DNA of 64,000 bases from contig WGNL01000025.1 of the NCBI GenBank assembly GCA_016124585.1, positions 1 through 64,000 on the forward strand. The letters are read 5' to 3'. Positions 38,140-47,622 of the stretch are shown one piece after another. Numbering within the stretch: position 1 is the stretch's first letter; every line of letters begins with the position of its first letter. The position numbers and the translations under genes were made by a program. This DNA comes from Bacteroidota bacterium. GTDB lineage: Bacteria; Bacteroidota; Bacteroidia; Chitinophagales; Saprospiraceae. The notes beneath the pieces are model-generated. The model was not told the origin of the DNA and did no database searches. It saw nothing but the letters and a program-made list of their open reading frames with translations.

Positions 38140-38327
38140 GTCGGATGTTTGATGGGCTGCCAGTTTGCAGCCTCTGAATGTACGTTTTAAAACAGAAAAT
38201 GTTGTATCTAAATTGGACTTACGTCAATATTCACGCATTGTAAGATTTTGAGGGACGAAGTTATTGCTATCGCCTGAGAAATGTTAAATTGGCGTGTCAT
38301 TCTTTCCTTTTAACCTAAACCTTGGTT

Positions 38328-38816
38328 ATGAAAAAACTATTCTACCTCTTGCCCATGTCCGTTATTTTTTTGCTCACGCAATGTATGCCCGCCAAGCGAC
38401 TGCACCAAGCAGAAACCAATGCTGAAACAATCCGACTGTGGTATGAGGAAGGTTGGAACAAAGGAAACAATGAAGCACTTATTCCAAGGGTTTTTCATCC
38501 AGACTGGAGCGATGGCAACCCTTTGCAGCCAGAATCCAATCAAGGAATCGGAGGCATGTACGAACTTGTCAAATTTTACAAGCAAGCTTTTCCTGATGCA
38601 CATTTTACTATCACTCATCTTTTTGCAGATGATACACATGCTGCCATTCGTTACGAAGTCGAAGCTACCCACATGGGCGATGCTTTTGGTGTGCCTGCTA
38701 CTGGCAAGAAATTCACGTCAACAGGACAGGTGATTTATGAAATGCGGGATGGGAAAATATACCGGAGTTGGCAGGAACTTGATTTGATGGGCATCATGAA
38801 TCAACTGAAGGATTGA
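38328..38816 (+). CDS. SnoaL-like / ester cyclase family lipoprotein
   Basis: Lipobox-like LLTQC; WYEEGWNKGN, DAHFTITHLFADDTHAAIRYEVEATHMGDAFGVPATGKKF. ATG at 38328. Confidence 0.75.
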   Translation: MKKLFYLLPMSVIFLLTQCMPAKRLHQAETNAETIRLWYEEGWNKGNNEALIPRVFHPDWSDGNPLQPESNQGIGGMYELVKFYKQAFPDAHFTITHLFADDTHAAIRYEVEATHMGDAFGVPATGKKFTSTGQVIYEMRDGKIYRSWQELDLMGIMNQLKD

Positions 38817-39668: not shown

Positions 39669-40520
39669 CTATTGGTTCTTCCTGTAGGTGACTGGATTCT
39701 GACCCAGTGCTTTTTTAAAGGCTTTGTTGAAGTAGGAAATATTGCTAAAGCCACTTTCGAAGCAGATTTCAGCGACCGATTTTTCGGTGGTTGCCAGCAA
39801 ATTGGCAGCGTGGTTTACCCTGAAATGTGTCAATGCCTCAACAAAAGTCTGTCGAGCAATTTTCTTGAAGAATCGGCAGAATGAAGTGGGAGAAAGGTTG
39901 GCCACAGCTGCGATGGATTCCAATGGAACTTCAGTAGTGTAGTTTTCCGATAAAAAAGCATAGACTTTTCGGAATCGTTCTGTGTCCAAAGGCGTCGGCG
40001 GATGCTCCATAAAATGATAGTCGATGACAGAAACCTCCTTTGATTCAGAAATAATTAGCAGTAAATCAATGAGTTGCAGAAATTTTTGAGCAGGCTTTAG
40101 CTCAGTTTTCTGGTTCATCTTTTTTCCTAGCGCATCCCTTGTCTTCCCGAAAATATGGATACCATATTTCGCTTTTTCCAGCAGTTGGTTGACTTTGGCC
40201 ATCTCCGGCATTTCCCAAAATTCATTTCCCACGAATTCCTTTTTGAACTGGATGACTACTTGTTCAGCTGCTTTGCTGTCATTAAGATAATCTGTACTAA
40301 GCCAAGTATGTGGCAAATTTGAGCCTAGCAGCACCAAATCGCCTGGCTCAAAACTGGAAACTTGCCTGCCGACCATTCGTTTTCCACGCCCCTTGATGAT
40401 ATAGGTTAGCTCAATTTCAGGATGAAAATGAAAAGGAGCATCGAACCGGGCTTGAACGAATCGCCGCCAAAGGAAGGAGGTGTTGGTATTCCCAGAAATT
40501 TGCTCAAATGTGGGTTTCAT
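39669..40520 (-). CDS. AraC-family transcriptional regulator (cupin + HTH)
   Basis: N-term FHFHPEIELTYIIKGRGKRMVG cupin; C-term ATTEKSVAEICFESGFSNISYFNKAFKKALGQNPVTYRK. Confidence 0.92.
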   Translation of the reverse strand: MKPTFEQISGNTNTSFLWRRFVQARFDAPFHFHPEIELTYIIKGRGKRMVGRQVSSFEPGDLVLLGSNLPHTWLSTDYLNDSKAAEQVVIQFKKEFVGNEFWEMPEMAKVNQLLEKAKYGIHIFGKTRDALGKKMNQKTELKPAQKFLQLIDLLLIISESKEVSVIDYHFMEHPPTPLDTERFRKVYAFLSENYTTEVPLESIAAVANLSPTSFCRFFKKIARQTFVEALTHFRVNHAANLLATTEKSVAEICFESGFSNISYFNKAFKKALGQNPVTYRKNQ

Positions 40521-40810: not shown

Positions 40811-43732
40811 ATGAAACTAATTATTCAAAATTTCTTTCTGCTCCTTGGGCTGGCCTTCATGCCGGTACTTGCATTTAGTCAAAGGACTATTTCAGGAACT
40901 GTGACAGATGGCAGTTCAGGTGAGACGCTTATCGGTGCAAGCATTCTAGTTGTTGGCACCTCTACTGGTACCGTCTCCGATGTGGACGGCACCTACAGTT
41001 TATCAGTTCCGACAGAAGCGACGACACTTCGTTTCAGCTACACGGGTTACGAAACGGTGGATGTGGCAATTGGCGCTTCCAATACGTTAGATGTAAAAAT
41101 GGCCGCAGGTACACTCCTAAACGAAGTCGTGGTGATTGGCTACGGGGAAGTTAAAAAGGAAGATGCAACTGGCTCAGTTACGGAAGTGAACTCCGATGTG
41201 TTCAATAGGGGCTCTATCACAGCGCCCCAGGAATTGTTGGCTGGTAAAGTAGCTGGCGTTCAAATCACGCCTAGTGCTGACCCAGGTGGTGGTGCACAAA
41301 TCCGAATTCGTGGAGGGTCTTCTTTGAGTGCTTCAAATGACCCACTGATTGTCATCGATGGCATTCCCCTTGACAACGGCACCATTTCTGGTGCACGTAA
41401 CGTTTTTGACTTTGTGAATCCAAACGATATTGAGACGTTTACCGTATTGAAAGATGCTTCCGCAACTGCAATTTATGGCAGCCGGGCGTCCAACGGCGTT
41501 ATTATCATCACCACCAAAAAAGGCAAGCTTGGACAAAAAATGAAGGTGGAATACAACGGCAATATCTCCTTCAGCAATGCGCTTGAAACTGGCGATGTGC
41601 TAAATGCTAGCGAATATACCGACTTGATTAACAGCCGTTTCCCGGATGGCAATGCAGCTAGGGCTGCTCTCGGAAGTGCCAACACCAACTGGCAAGATGC
41701 TATCTACGAAACTGGCGTTGGGCATGACCACAACTTGAATGTTTCAGGTGGAATTGGACCAGTTCCTTATCGTGTATCAGCTGGCTACACCGACAAAAAA
41801 GGGATACTTCTTACCGATCGTTTTCAACGTACCACTGGTTCTATCAACCTGACGCCCAAATTCATTGATAACCGTTTGCAGGTGAATTTCAGCCTGAAAG
41901 GCATGAACACGGACAACCATTTCGGCAATCAGGGTGCAATTGGTGCAGCTTCATTTTTTGACCCAACCCATCCGATTTATGACGAGAACAGCCCCTACGG
42001 TGGGTATTTCACTTGGACTCAAAACAATGGTGACCCCAATGTATTGGCACCTGCCAACCCGCTTGCTCAGTTGATGCTTCGCAAGGACGTTTCAAATGTG
42101 AAGCGGTTTGTGGTCAGCTCAGGGTTTGACTATCGTTTTGGCTTTTTGCCAGAGCTGAGGGCAAACTTGAATTTGGCCTATGATAAATCGAAAGGTGAGG
42201 GCACCGTTGATGTTCCTGAATATGCCTCTTTTGCTTTTTTTGATGGTGGCGTAAAAAATACTTACAGCCAAACTAAAGAGAACAGCTTGCTTGAATTTTA
42301 CTTGAATTATGTAAAAGATTTGGGGCAAACCAAAGTAGATGTCATGGGTGGTTACTCATGGCAGCGCAATTACTTCACGGATGATTTTACCAACAGCAAT
42401 ATCTCTGGTACTGAGACTTCAAGTGGTGATAATTCTGGCGAATTGTTCTTGCTTTCCTTGTTTGGCCGTGTCAATCTTACCTTTTTTGACAGGTTGCTCT
42501 TGACTGGAACATTGCGGAGCGACAATTCATCGAGGTTTTCAAAGGATACCCGTCAGGGCTTGTTCCCTGCTGCCGCACTTGGTTTCAAGGTAGTAGATGG
42601 TAATGGAAAAGGTACCGTCTCTTCCCTCAAAGTTCGCCTTGGTTGGGGTATTACAGGTCAGCAAAATATTGGTGACTACTACGTACACTTACCGCGCTAC
42701 TTGGCTAGTTTTGAAAATGCAGGTTACCAATTTGGCGATACATTTGTTCAAACACTTCGCCCAGGCGGTTATGATAGCAAAATCAAATGGGAAGAAACTA
42801 CCACTGAAAACGTTGGTATCGACTACGGATTCTTGGATGAAAGAATTTATGGCTCTTTTGAAGTTTACCAACGCAAGACGAAGGACTTGTTGAATTTCAT
42901 TCCTGTTCCTGCTGGTTCCAACCTGACAAATTACATCAATACGAATGTCGGTGACCTTGAAAACAAAGGGATTGAGTTCGCTATCAATGTGAACCCAATC
43001 CGCAGCCCAAAGATGAATTGGGATTTTGGTTTCAATATTACAGCCAACAAGAACAAAATCACCAAATTGACTGCTTCCGACGATCCTGCCTACAACGGTG
43101 TGCTGACAGGCAATATCAGCGGTGGTGTAGGTAACACGGCTCAAATCCACAGCGTTGGCTATCCTGCCAATTCGTTTTATGTTTACGAGCAGGTTTATGA
43201 TGAGCAGGGAGTTCCAATTGAAGGTTTGTATGTTGACAGGAACGGCGATGGCATTGTGAATTCTGACGACCTCTATCGTTATGAAAAAGCTGCGCCGAAT
43301 TACTTCCTTGGCTTTACTTCAACTTTCACTTACCACAATTTTGATTTCTCATTTGCTGGACGGGCCAATGTTGGCAATTACGTTTACAATAACGTACAAT
43401 CTGGTACCAGCTACGCCAACCTTTACCATCCAACTGGTTATCTTGGCAATGTGAATTCGATTGCTACTTATTTAGACTTTCAAAACCCACAGTATTTGAG
43501 CGATTATTTCGTTCAGAATGCCTCCTTCTTGCGGATAGACCACGTGACGCTGGGCTATAATTTTGGGGACATGATTCAGAAAATCAGTTTCCTAAAATTG
43601 TTTGTGACAGTTCAAAATCCATTGTTGATTACGAACTATGAAGGCATCGACCCAGAGGTAGCCAGTGGCCTTGACAATAATGTCTATCCACGTTCACGTA
43701 CCATTTTGTTTGGTTTGAATGCTCGGTTTTGA
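40811..43732 (+). CDS. SusC/RagA-family TonB-linked outer membrane protein
   Basis: N-terminal ISGTVTDGSSGETLIGASILVVGTSTGTVSDVDGTYSL, VVIGYGEVKKEDATGSV plug, barrel C-term TILFGLNARF. Confidence 0.95.
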   Translation: MKLIIQNFFLLLGLAFMPVLAFSQRTISGTVTDGSSGETLIGASILVVGTSTGTVSDVDGTYSLSVPTEATTLRFSYTGYETVDVAIGASNTLDVKMAAGTLLNEVVVIGYGEVKKEDATGSVTEVNSDVFNRGSITAPQELLAGKVAGVQITPSADPGGGAQIRIRGGSSLSASNDPLIVIDGIPLDNGTISGARNVFDFVNPNDIETFTVLKDASATAIYGSRASNGVIIITTKKGKLGQKMKVEYNGNISFSNALETGDVLNASEYTDLINSRFPDGNAARAALGSANTNWQDAIYETGVGHDHNLNVSGGIGPVPYRVSAGYTDKKGILLTDRFQRTTGSINLTPKFIDNRLQVNFSLKGMNTDNHFGNQGAIGAASFFDPTHPIYDENSPYGGYFTWTQNNGDPNVLAPANPLAQLMLRKDVSNVKRFVVSSGFDYRFGFLPELRANLNLAYDKSKGEGTVDVPEYASFAFFDGGVKNTYSQTKENSLLEFYLNYVKDLGQTKVDVMGGYSWQRNYFTDDFTNSNISGTETSSGDNSGELFLLSLFGRVNLTFFDRLLLTGTLRSDNSSRFSKDTRQGLFPAAALGFKVVDGNGKGTVSSLKVRLGWGITGQQNIGDYYVHLPRYLASFENAGYQFGDTFVQTLRPGGYDSKIKWEETTTENVGIDYGFLDERIYGSFEVYQRKTKDLLNFIPVPAGSNLTNYINTNVGDLENKGIEFAINVNPIRSPKMNWDFGFNITANKNKITKLTASDDPAYNGVLTGNISGGVGNTAQIHSVGYPANSFYVYEQVYDEQGVPIEGLYVDRNGDGIVNSDDLYRYEKAAPNYFLGFTSTFTYHNFDFSFAGRANVGNYVYNNVQSGTSYANLYHPTGYLGNVNSIATYLDFQNPQYLSDYFVQNASFLRIDHVTLGYNFGDMIQKISFLKLFVTVQNPLLITNYEGIDPEVASGLDNNVYPRSRTILFGLNARF

Positions 43733-43753: not shown

Positions 43754-45961
43754 ATGAAGTTATTTTCATTTTCAAAAATATTCTGGCTAACGGGGATACT
43801 TCTCGTATTCTCGTCTTGCTTCAAGGACCTCGATACGGTGCCAACCGACAAAGATGAACTCACGTCGGCAGCTGTATACGAAGATCCAGCTAACTACAAA
43901 AAAGTATTGGCTCGTTTATATTCTGGCTTGGCTGTAACTGGCCAACAAGGCCCGGCAGGCCAACCTGACATCAGCGGTATTGATGAAGGCTTTGGTCAAT
44001 ACCTTCGCATGTACTGGTATTTGCAGGAGTTGTCAACTGATGAGGCGGTTATTGGCTGGAATGATGCTACAATCCAGGATTTTCACAAACAAAACTGGAG
44101 CTCCGACGACGGTTTTATTTATGCCTGCTACAGCCGGATTTTCTATCAGGTAGCCATTTGCAACGAATTCCTTCGGGAAACAACTGATGCCAAATTGGAC
44201 AGCCGCAACGTAGATGCCGGTTTGCGCAGCGACATAAAGACTTACCGTGCTGAGGCCCGCTTTTTGCGTGCCCTCAGCTACTACCATGCCCTTGACCTCT
44301 TCCGCAATGTACCCTTCGTAACAGAAGAGGACGAGGTAGGTGCCTTCTTCCCTAAGCAGATTTCTGCTGCTGACCTTTACACTTGGTTAGAGAATGAAAT
44401 CAAAGCTTTCGAGCCAGACATGGCTGCACCACGCAGCAACGAGTATGGACGTGCCGACCAAGCTGCCGCTTGGATGTTGCTCTCCAAATTGTACTTGAAC
44501 GCCGAAGTCTATGTCGGCAAAAATGCTTACACCGATGCAGTAACGTATTCCAAAAAAGTAATTGATTCTGGCTACGAACTGGAACCGAACTTCGCCAATT
44601 TGTTTCTCGCCGACAACAATAAATCGAAGGAAATCATCTTCCCAATCACTTTCGATGGCGTTCATACCCGTACTTATGGCGGCATGACATTTTTGGTACA
44701 CGCACCAGTAGGTGGTAGTATGTCCGCCAGCGATTTTGGCTTGGATGGTGGCTGGGGCGGTATCCGTACTACCAGTGCTATCGTAAACAAATATCCAGCA
44801 GCGGGCAGTGGTGGCAGCATCATTGTGGCAGCAAACCAAGGCAATACGGGCTACCCTGTGGTAAATGTACCCGGTGACTTCCAAGGCTGGGACCCTGCAT
44901 TGACCACGACCGTTTTGTCCTCACCAAACAGCGACGACAAATACGAAGGTTATTTTTGGCTTAATGCAGGCGCAATGTTCAAGTTTGCATTGGGTAGCTG
45001 GGATACCAACTGGGGTGACACTGGTGCTGACGGTACACTTGATGCAGGTGGTGACAATATCACAGTCGCTGAAGATGGCTTCTACAAAATCAATGTTGAT
45101 TTGGGTGCCCTGACCTACACTATTTTAAAGACAGACTGGGGCCTTATCGGCTCTGCAACTGCCGATGGCTGGGATAGCGACCAGAACATGACATACGATG
45201 CAACAGATAATACTTGGAACATTACCACAACTCTCGTAGCTGGTGAGGTAAAATTCCGGGCAAATGATGCTTGGGATTTGAACTATGGTGACGATGGTGC
45301 GGATGCCATCCTAAATGAAGGTGGTGCCAATATTGCCATCCCAGAAAATGGGTTGTATGCCATCAAGCTATACCTGGATTCGCCAGATCATACCTATTCC
45401 ATCGAGAAAATGGCGACGGAATCGGATACTCGTAACCAGTTCTACACCAATGGTCAAAACTTGGAAATAGCTGATATTTCACAATTTACTGATGGCTACG
45501 CTGTCGCAAAATACAAGAACGTGACCTCGACTGGAGCGCCTGGATCTGACCAGACTTTTGTTGACACCGACTTCCCAATGTTTCGTTTGGCGGATGCCTA
45601 TTTGATGTACGCTGAAGCCGTACTCCGTGGCGGTGCCGGTGGTGACCAAGCTACTGCTTTGCAGTATATTAATGACCTTCGAACCCGAGCCTACAATGGC
45701 CCGACTGGCAATATCAGCAGCGCTGATTTGACCTTGGACTTCATTCTCGATGAGCGGGCACGGGAACTGCTCTGGGAAGGCCATCGCCGCACAGACTTGG
45801 TTCGTTATGGCCAATTCACGAATGGCACCTATCTCTGGCCTTGGAAGGGCGGTGTAGCTGCTGGTAGTGCCGTGGATGAATGCCGTGACGTGTACCCAAT
45901 CCCGTCACAGGATTTGAACGCCAACAACAACTTGAAGCAAAATGGCACGGGTTGTTATTGA
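43754..45961 (+). CDS. RagB/SusD-family nutrient uptake lipoprotein with inserted SusE/F-like tandem domain
   Basis: SusD N-term (SSCFKDLDTVPTDKD, EARFLRALSYYHALDLF) and C-term (DERARELLWEGHRRTDLVRYGQF); central ~195-aa insert similar to the next gene. Confidence 0.92.
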   Translation: MKLFSFSKIFWLTGILLVFSSCFKDLDTVPTDKDELTSAAVYEDPANYKKVLARLYSGLAVTGQQGPAGQPDISGIDEGFGQYLRMYWYLQELSTDEAVIGWNDATIQDFHKQNWSSDDGFIYACYSRIFYQVAICNEFLRETTDAKLDSRNVDAGLRSDIKTYRAEARFLRALSYYHALDLFRNVPFVTEEDEVGAFFPKQISAADLYTWLENEIKAFEPDMAAPRSNEYGRADQAAAWMLLSKLYLNAEVYVGKNAYTDAVTYSKKVIDSGYELEPNFANLFLADNNKSKEIIFPITFDGVHTRTYGGMTFLVHAPVGGSMSASDFGLDGGWGGIRTTSAIVNKYPAAGSGGSIIVAANQGNTGYPVVNVPGDFQGWDPALTTTVLSSPNSDDKYEGYFWLNAGAMFKFALGSWDTNWGDTGADGTLDAGGDNITVAEDGFYKINVDLGALTYTILKTDWGLIGSATADGWDSDQNMTYDATDNTWNITTTLVAGEVKFRANDAWDLNYGDDGADAILNEGGANIAIPENGLYAIKLYLDSPDHTYSIEKMATESDTRNQFYTNGQNLEIADISQFTDGYAVAKYKNVTSTGAPGSDQTFVDTDFPMFRLADAYLMYAEAVLRGGAGGDQATALQYINDLRTRAYNGPTGNISSADLTLDFILDERARELLWEGHRRTDLVRYGQFTNGTYLWPWKGGVAAGSAVDECRDVYPIPSQDLNANNNLKQNGTGCY

Positions 45962-46033: not shown

Positions 46034-47071
46034 ATGATTCGCAAATATCTTAGTTTCATGATGGTTTCCTTCCTGCTCTTTCAGGCATGCAAGGAAGACA
46101 GCCTCGGCCCTGAAGTAAAACTTGGTGCCGCACCTACCATCACCACCCCTTCTGGTGGCAATACTTATGTGTTGGAGGAGGCCACCGTTGCCGACCATTT
46201 CTCAGATTTTACCTGGACAAGCGCAGACTTTGGCTTCCAAGCTGCCATTACCTATACTGTTGAATTGGACAAAGCAGGCAATGGCTTCGCCAATGCAGTG
46301 GCATTGGGCACCACCAATTCCAATACACTTACCACTATCACCAATGAAAAAGTGAACTCCATCCTGCTAGCCAAGGAACTCCCAGGTGGAGCGCCAGCGG
46401 ATATCGAGGTAAGGGTAAGGGCAAAAGTGAGCAGTGATGTGACCGAACTGATTTCCCCATCCATCGCCATGACGGTCACGCCGTTTGAAGCAGCTGTTGA
46501 TTATCCAAAACTCCAAGTACCTGGCAGCTACCAGGGCTGGGACCCTGCCAACACTTCTACCGTCATTACTTCCCTAAAAAGTGATGGCACCTACGAAGGC
46601 TATATTTGGGTAGCTGATCCTGACGCCAAGCACAAGTTTACACAAGGCTTGTCATGGGACACGAACTGGGGAGACACTGGCCTTGATGGAACGCTTGATC
46701 CGGGTGGTGATGATATTCCCCTCGGCGCAGCGGGCATGTACAAGATGAACGTGGACCTGAATCAGTTGACTTATACAGATTTGTTGACAAGCTGGGGCCT
46801 CATTGGTGATGCCACGCCTACTGGCTGGGACTCAGACACTGACATGAACTACGATGTCAACACGGGCCACCTGACCCTCACCGTTGATTTGACAGTAGGT
46901 TCCATCAAATTCCGTGCGAACGATGGCTGGGACATCAATCTTGGCGATGATGGGCCAAATGGCAAATTGGAATACAATGGCGCTGATATTGCCATTGCCG
47001 AGGCAGGTAATTACACCATCGAATTGATTCTGAACGAACCGAAATATTCTTACACGGTTACGAAGAATTGA
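46034..47071 (+). CDS. SusE/SusF-like outer membrane lipoprotein
   Basis: SusE N-terminal domain (lipobox FQAC; FSDFTWTSADFGFQAAITYTVELDKAG) plus two starch-binding-like repeats (WDTNWGDTG, WDINLGDDG). Confidence 0.88.
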   Translation: MIRKYLSFMMVSFLLFQACKEDSLGPEVKLGAAPTITTPSGGNTYVLEEATVADHFSDFTWTSADFGFQAAITYTVELDKAGNGFANAVALGTTNSNTLTTITNEKVNSILLAKELPGGAPADIEVRVRAKVSSDVTELISPSIAMTVTPFEAAVDYPKLQVPGSYQGWDPANTSTVITSLKSDGTYEGYIWVADPDAKHKFTQGLSWDTNWGDTGLDGTLDPGGDDIPLGAAGMYKMNVDLNQLTYTDLLTSWGLIGDATPTGWDSDTDMNYDVNTGHLTLTVDLTVGSIKFRANDGWDINLGDDGPNGKLEYNGADIAIAEAGNYTIELILNEPKYSYTVTKN

Positions 47072-47223: not shown

Positions 47224-47622
47224 ATGACCGCTTTAGAGACTGTAAAAGAATATTACAAACGCTTCAATGCCAAGGATTTCGATGGTATGTTGGCGATGCT
47301 GGACCCCAACATCCGCCATGAGCCCAACCAAGGCGAGCCACGTATCGGCTTGGCGCTTTTCACGGAGTTCATGAGAATGATGGACGAGAGCTATGAGGAA
47401 ACGCTGACCGATATGGTATTCTACACGGAGGCCAATGGTGAGCGGGTGGCCGCCGAGTTCACGGTGAATGGCATTTATAAAAAAGCCGACGAGGGCTTTC
47501 CGCCTGCCCATGGCCAGAGCTACGTGTTGCCTGCCGCTAGTTTTTTGGAAGTAAAAAACGGCAAAATCACCCGGGTGGCTACGTTTTATAATCTTCCGCT
47601 TTGGATAAAATTGGTATCGTGA
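47224..47622 (+). CDS. SnoaL-like nuclear-transport-factor-2-fold protein
   Basis: VKEYYKRFNAKDFDGMLAMLDPNIRHEPNQGEPRIG, FLEVKNGKITRVATFYNLP. Confidence 0.8.
   Translation: MTALETVKEYYKRFNAKDFDGMLAMLDPNIRHEPNQGEPRIGLALFTEFMRMMDESYEETLTDMVFYTEANGERVAAEFTVNGIYKKADEGFPPAHGQSYVLPAASFLEVKNGKITRVATFYNLPLWIKLVS

Follow-up and report, generated by a model that had tools for sequence, protein, structure and literature searches.

How a SusD-like lipoprotein came to carry, within its own chain, a segment closely resembling the SusE-like protein encoded next to it, and what that segment might do there, are the questions raised by a locus on contig WGNL01000025.1 of a Saprospiraceae genome (assembly GCA_016124585.1). 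We refer to the whole stretch of DNA that was analyzed, 64,000 nucleotides, as the window.

The locus and its SusD protein

The features of the window that bear on these questions are as follows.

39669..40520, minus strand: AraC-type regulator, divergent from susC (PF12833 HTH_18, E=2e-21; Cupin_2)
40811..43732, plus strand: SusC-like TonB-dependent transporter (Pfam Plug, E=9e-20; CarbopepD_reg_2; TonB-dependent beta-barrel, E=5e-16)
43754..45961, plus strand: SusD-like lid lipoprotein with insert, 735 aa (Pfam PF07980, E=5e-34; SusD-like_3)
44006..44059, plus strand: R85 and W102, equivalents of R81 and W98 of Bacteroides thetaiotaomicron SusD (BtSusD; alignment to 3ck7)
44675..44755, plus strand: Y308 and W334, equivalents of BtSusD Y296 and W320 (alignment to 3ck7, constant numbering offset)
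44840..45412, plus strand: whole insert, residues 363-553 (~190 aa; similar to the SusE-like protein, missing from the plain SusDs aligned)
44852..45130, plus strand: insert module d1, X25/SusE type, with W379 at 44888 and W416 at 44999 (PF22058 X25_BaPul_like; profile match to SusF 4fe9, E=0.0012; Trp conservation)
45131..45409, plus strand: insert module d2, SusF_SusE type, with W473 at 45170 and W507 at 45272 (PF16411 SusF_SusE; profile matches; Trp conservation)
46034..47071, plus strand: SusE-like lipoprotein, 345 aa, an N-terminal SusE domain followed by a d1-d2 tandem (PF14292 SusE, E=5e-21; PF16411)
46502..47065, plus strand: the part of the SusE-like protein to which the SusD insert is homologous, its d1-d2 tandem (BLASTP)

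The SusC, SusD, and SusE genes run in the same direction. Membership of the inserted protein in the alpha-glucan branch of the SusD/RagB family is indicated by its domains, its fold, a lipoprotein Cys together with an upstream susC, and its starch-site residues. Its closest solved relatives by phmmer are 3jys (369 bits) and BtSusD 3ck7 (303 bits), and Foldseek with the whole protein returns 3jys (E=1e-35) as well as complexes of BtSusD with oligosaccharides. Against NF033071, the NCBIfam model for the Bacteroides-type SusD, it scores 437 bits, below the curated cut-off of 725, which points to a homologue of the starch branch rather than the named Bacteroides SusD itself. A 39-row homologue alignment shows no variation at the lipoprotein Cys (C22), R85, or W102 and very little at W334. 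We take BtSusD R81, W98, Y296, and W320 to be residues of the SusD starch site; one constant offset puts R, W, N, Y, and W on the matching letters of 3ck7, and the position of BtSusD N101 corresponds to D104 in the window protein.

No glycoside hydrolase was found adjoining the SusC, SusD, and SusE genes of the window, and the GH13 genes of this genome lie on other contigs. Among relatives, GH13, a SusG-like amylase, GH97, or GH65 is encoded near several inserted SusDs, making an alpha-glucan SusC/SusD importer with a SusE-like partner the best reading of the locus. Counted against this reading is GH53, which adjoins SusD at two loci with divergent inserts.

Other genes were seen in these surroundings. 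Two small SnoaL-like proteins lie on either side of the region in the window (38322-38816 and 47224-47622). Among the relatives' loci, which we number with an L, GH53, the beta-1,4-galactanase family, is found just downstream of starch-branch inserted SusDs at L184:4216-5658 and L071:13381-14847. Proteins with five to eight SusE-type modules are encoded near inserted SusDs at L055:13470-15374, L057:13359-15155, L074:13327-15354, L182:7129-9852, and L183:694-2529; those of L057 and L182, the ones scanned, have a type IX secretion tail at the C-terminus and look like secreted multi-module starch-binding proteins.

A SusE-type tandem in a SusD loop

The resemblance of the insert to the C-terminal half of the adjacent SusE-like protein, on which the original prediction was built, is real. 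SusD residues 367-552 align with SusE-like residues 157-344 at 55% identity (104/188; BLASTP E=1e-63, in a search of those two sequences only), the DNA is 67% identical over 347 bp (E=2e-21), and the ~195-aa interval proposed at first, 44836-45414, was right to within a few bases. PF16411 scores 54 bits on the SusD protein (cut-off, 27.5) and PF22058 scores 35.5 bits (cut-off, 27). Searching PDB with the insert as a single sequence yielded weak matches only, and it took profiles to reveal matches of the SusE/F type; the d2 profile matches BT3088 SGBPdex (E=1e-9) and, weakly, Sca5 X25-2 (7rpy). Pfam, BLASTP, profile, and Foldseek matches agree in placing a SusE/F-type pair within SusD, as had been proposed. 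The further claim that each half is itself a two-fold repeat stands by profile comparison of d1 with d2 (hhalign probability 99.1, E=6e-19) but not by self-BLAST, in which no repeat was visible.

The position of the pair is well defined. Alignment of the SusD to 3jys and 3ck7 falls into two blocks, stopping at query residue 347 and resuming at about 526-554, and the insert starts ~16-30 residues past W334, the third aromatic of the starch site, between the conserved SusD motifs xxVxKF and DxRxxF in the cases printed. Outside the insert, SusD length is constant, with medians of 535-540. An AlphaFold2 model of the whole protein, made with 39 homologues (mean pLDDT, 84.9), contains the SusD helical core and an all-beta stretch at 356-553, in which both modules reach pLDDT ~88-95; residues 350-354, just before it, form a linker of low confidence. 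The two-block alignment and this model confirm the expected placement, a loop flanked by conserved segments of SusD.

Modeled alone (mean pLDDT, 96.8), the insert has the beta-sandwich fold of SusE/F. Foldseek matches it to Sca5 X25-2 (7rpy), SusE with alpha-cyclodextrin (4fem), SusE with maltoheptaose (4fch), and SusF (4fe9), with E-values of 1.1e-5 to 4e-7, and to further starch-binding domains at weaker E-values. TM-scores for the module pair are moderate (0.36-0.55), which may reflect an angle between the modules that differs from that in SusE. For pairs with unsaturated synonymous change, dN/dS of the insert is 0.03-0.12, in most pairs somewhat above that of the core, but the insert is clearly under constraint.

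Predicted binding residues

In the X25 pair of Ruminococcus bromii Sca5/Sas20, maltooligosaccharides are bound via two Trp per module, and each Trp mutation weakens binding (PMC9112005). By comparison with Sca5 W509/W555 and W620/W661 (PMC9112005), the predicted binding residues of the insert are W379/W416 in d1 and W473/W507 in d2, and W507 matches the position of the second Trp in the d2 profile alignment. Across 60 inserts, a count that excludes one divergent eight-member Saprospiraceae clade, W379 is kept in 59, W416 in 54, W473 in 59, and W507 in all 60. This conservation and the comparison with Sca5/Sas20 favor the proposed SusD with built-in glycan-binding modules, as a prediction.

The modules might instead serve assembly or lid stability, through contacts to SusC, SusE, or a second SusD, with no glycan binding involved. 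BtSusE does aid uptake in a way that does not depend on its starch-binding sites (Foley 2018, cited in PMC9599597), and in the eight-member clade both modules are retained with many of the four Trp gone. Nevertheless, each Trp is kept in 54 to 60 of the 60 inserts outside that clade, and the top fold matches are alpha-glucan-binding modules, so we regard a role confined to assembly or lid stability as unlikely. For the eroded inserts themselves a changed ligand is possible, and, since their modules are kept, part of the inserts may have another ligand or a structural role. At the loci with Trp-eroded Saprospiraceae inserts L020-L023, L129, and L130, no SusE-type gene was detected directly beside SusD. 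The Trp-eroded inserts include L129/L184, where GH53 is the neighbor.

Distribution among relatives

Within the genus, the insert is present in 10 of 10 complete orthologs, the tenth counted despite partial coverage of its ends, and in two broken ones. A strong match occurs in 146 of 298 Saprospiraceae genomes, and 84 of these matches span the insert in one frame, as counted by hand from the match table. Outside the family the insert is a minority trait (7 of 77 matches at class level; about 16 of 93 at phylum level, with one-module and unrelated inserts included), at odds with the alternative that had been named alongside the original prediction, an insert present in most SusD orthologs. The insert is old, common in Saprospiraceae, rare elsewhere, and often lost.

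A set of 160 SusDs studied in detail, which includes near-copies, comprises 69 with no module, 12 with one, 77 with two, and 2 with three, one unrelated single domain being among the counts. Inserted SusDs usually also have a SusE gene. One-module inserts are d2-like in Flavobacteriaceae and d1-like in Balneolaceae (L117, L186-L193). The same SusD loop holds an unrelated 132-aa domain at L035:2512-2919 (and L185) and a ~79-aa domain in L194/L195; these had no Pfam match in that stretch and no detectable X25 similarity, and the 132-aa domain of L035 had no match in Pfam or PDB.

Evolutionary history of the insert

Was the insert copied from the neighboring gene? A local, lineage-recent duplication of SusE modules into SusD, as originally predicted, would be consistent with the adjacency of the genes and their 55% protein and 67% DNA identity, and in the first d1 tree the single SusD module of Rhodohalobacter L117 was indeed closest to its own SusE module, at 64%. 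With more Balneolaceae sequences, however, the L117 module joins other SusD modules. The insert is common to the genus and the family, and inserts group together: in a 160-row tree, SusD inserts and SusE tandems are separated by 2 label changes, and the SusE of the same locus ranks first among SusEs in only 4 of 57 loci. Over the same 45 loci, insert distances correlate with those of the SusD core (r=0.57) and scarcely with those of the neighboring SusE (r=0.11). Trees, own-SusE rank, and distance correlations lead us to reject recent local duplication, and we give it very little probability.

In the close relatives L011, L012, and L016, an inserted SusD that is nearly orthologous has next to it a quite different SusE, which contains two modules of the d2 type. 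Their SusE is 35-37% identical to the insert, while the inserted SusDs are 69-83% identical, a further point against duplication. By these comparisons, the SusE gene or its modules were swapped while the SusD insert stayed.

At the other extreme, the insert could be ancestral to all alpha-glucan SusDs and have been lost many times. On SusD-core trees, plain SusDs nest among inserted ones with 15-16 changes of insert presence or absence, insert and core distances correlate as noted above, and the data are compatible with one gain at the root of the large clade, counting L063/L067 and L071 in it (p-AU, 0.15-0.30), making a single tandem gain with many losses possible. Ancestry to all SusDs is not supported: outside the family only a minority of SusDs have the insert, X25 similarity is missing from two inserts at this site, and a single clade of the Flavobacteriaceae one-module d2 inserts with the d2 of the tandems is rejected (p-AU, 0.024). 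We consider this history improbable.

That last rejection makes the Flavobacteriaceae inserts a separate gain. For Balneolaceae, the tree favors an origin of d1 apart from the tandem d1, short of significance (p-AU, 0.07), and the single module there was probably gained independently. For the Lentimicrobium-type SusDs (L063-L067), the free tree hints at a separate cassette transfer, but their inclusion in the main clade is not rejected (p-AU, 0.30). Forcing two- and three-module SusDs together as a single clade in the SusD core tree gave a topology that was rejected (p-AU, 0.00017), which implies multiple gains and losses or exchange. Overall, the near-single grouping of the inserts and the way their distances track the SusD core suggest that the tandem entered SusD once or a few times long ago and then mainly traveled with SusD, at times being lost and perhaps exchanged.

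Discussion

Our preferred reading, which we consider likely, is that an old SusE-type X25 tandem lies within the SusD lid of an alpha-glucan importer and acts there as a starch-binding pair in cis. It builds on the homology and position that were observed, on the predicted fold, on the conserved binding residues, and on phylogeny. Two X25 beta-sandwich modules would have entered the SusD loop after the third starch-site aromatic and would since have been passed on mostly together with SusD, though lost repeatedly or exchanged to some extent. The ligand, the geometry on the closed lid, and the benefit to uptake are what we infer from this arrangement: the pair would project from the lid near SusD's own starch site, its Trp would hold an alpha-glucan chain or helix as in the Sca5/Sas20 pair, and local avidity at the transporter mouth would be raised in cis, on top of SusE in trans, improving hand-over of the glycan there.

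Several known systems resemble parts of this arrangement. BtSusD (3ck7-3ckc) and the B. vulgatus SusD-like protein 3jys share the SusD fold and starch-site residues but have only a short loop, of about 40 and about 10 residues, respectively, in place of the insert. SusE/SusF (4fch, 4fem, 4fe9) and BT3088 SGBPdex (9sje) belong to the same module family, are tandem, and are encoded beside susCD, but act in trans, as lipoproteins of their own. R. bromii Sca5 X25-2/Sas20 domain 2 (7rpy; PMC9112005) is likewise a tandem X25 pair with two Trp per module, within a scaffoldin/dockerin protein of a Gram-positive amylosome. The SusG alpha-amylase has CBM58 inserted in its domain B (PMC11267923), again a starch-binding module within a Sus protein, although the host is an enzyme rather than a transporter lid and the module family differs. 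In levan and dextran utilisomes, the surface glycan-binding protein (SGBP) sits side by side with SusD at the SusC mouth, as a separate subunit docked on SusC (PMC7618045), whereas the pair described here is covalently part of the lid. The "looped" alpha-glucan SusDs of marine Flavobacteriia also have extra sequence near the binding site and lie beside SusE and GH13; the accessible part of that survey reports a ~17-aa loop and describes no SusDs with inserted SusE-type modules (PMC11093988). Nor did we find such SusDs described in the open papers searched, a scope that took in few subscription papers; domain databases may list the architecture. What looks new is the combination, together with the repeated use of a single loop; each component by itself is known.

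We count four uses of this loop, namely, the SusE-type tandem of Saprospiraceae and others, the Flavobacteriaceae d2, the ~132-aa domain, and the ~79-aa domain; the single d1 of Balneolaceae is probably a fifth. It seems somewhat probable that this loop of the lid is a domain acceptor with at least four independent uses, and that the lid thereby becomes a surface glycan-binding protein in its own right, each lineage having tuned the number of modules and their binding residues.

How glycan chains are handed over from surface glycan-binding proteins to the SusCD "pedal bin" is an open question because these subunits are separate and mobile. A natural fusion at a defined site on the lid makes hand-over testable in a single protein, by comparing forms that have or lack the modules, or the Trp of the modules, and the repeated use of one loop marks where SusD accepts extra domains without loss of function.
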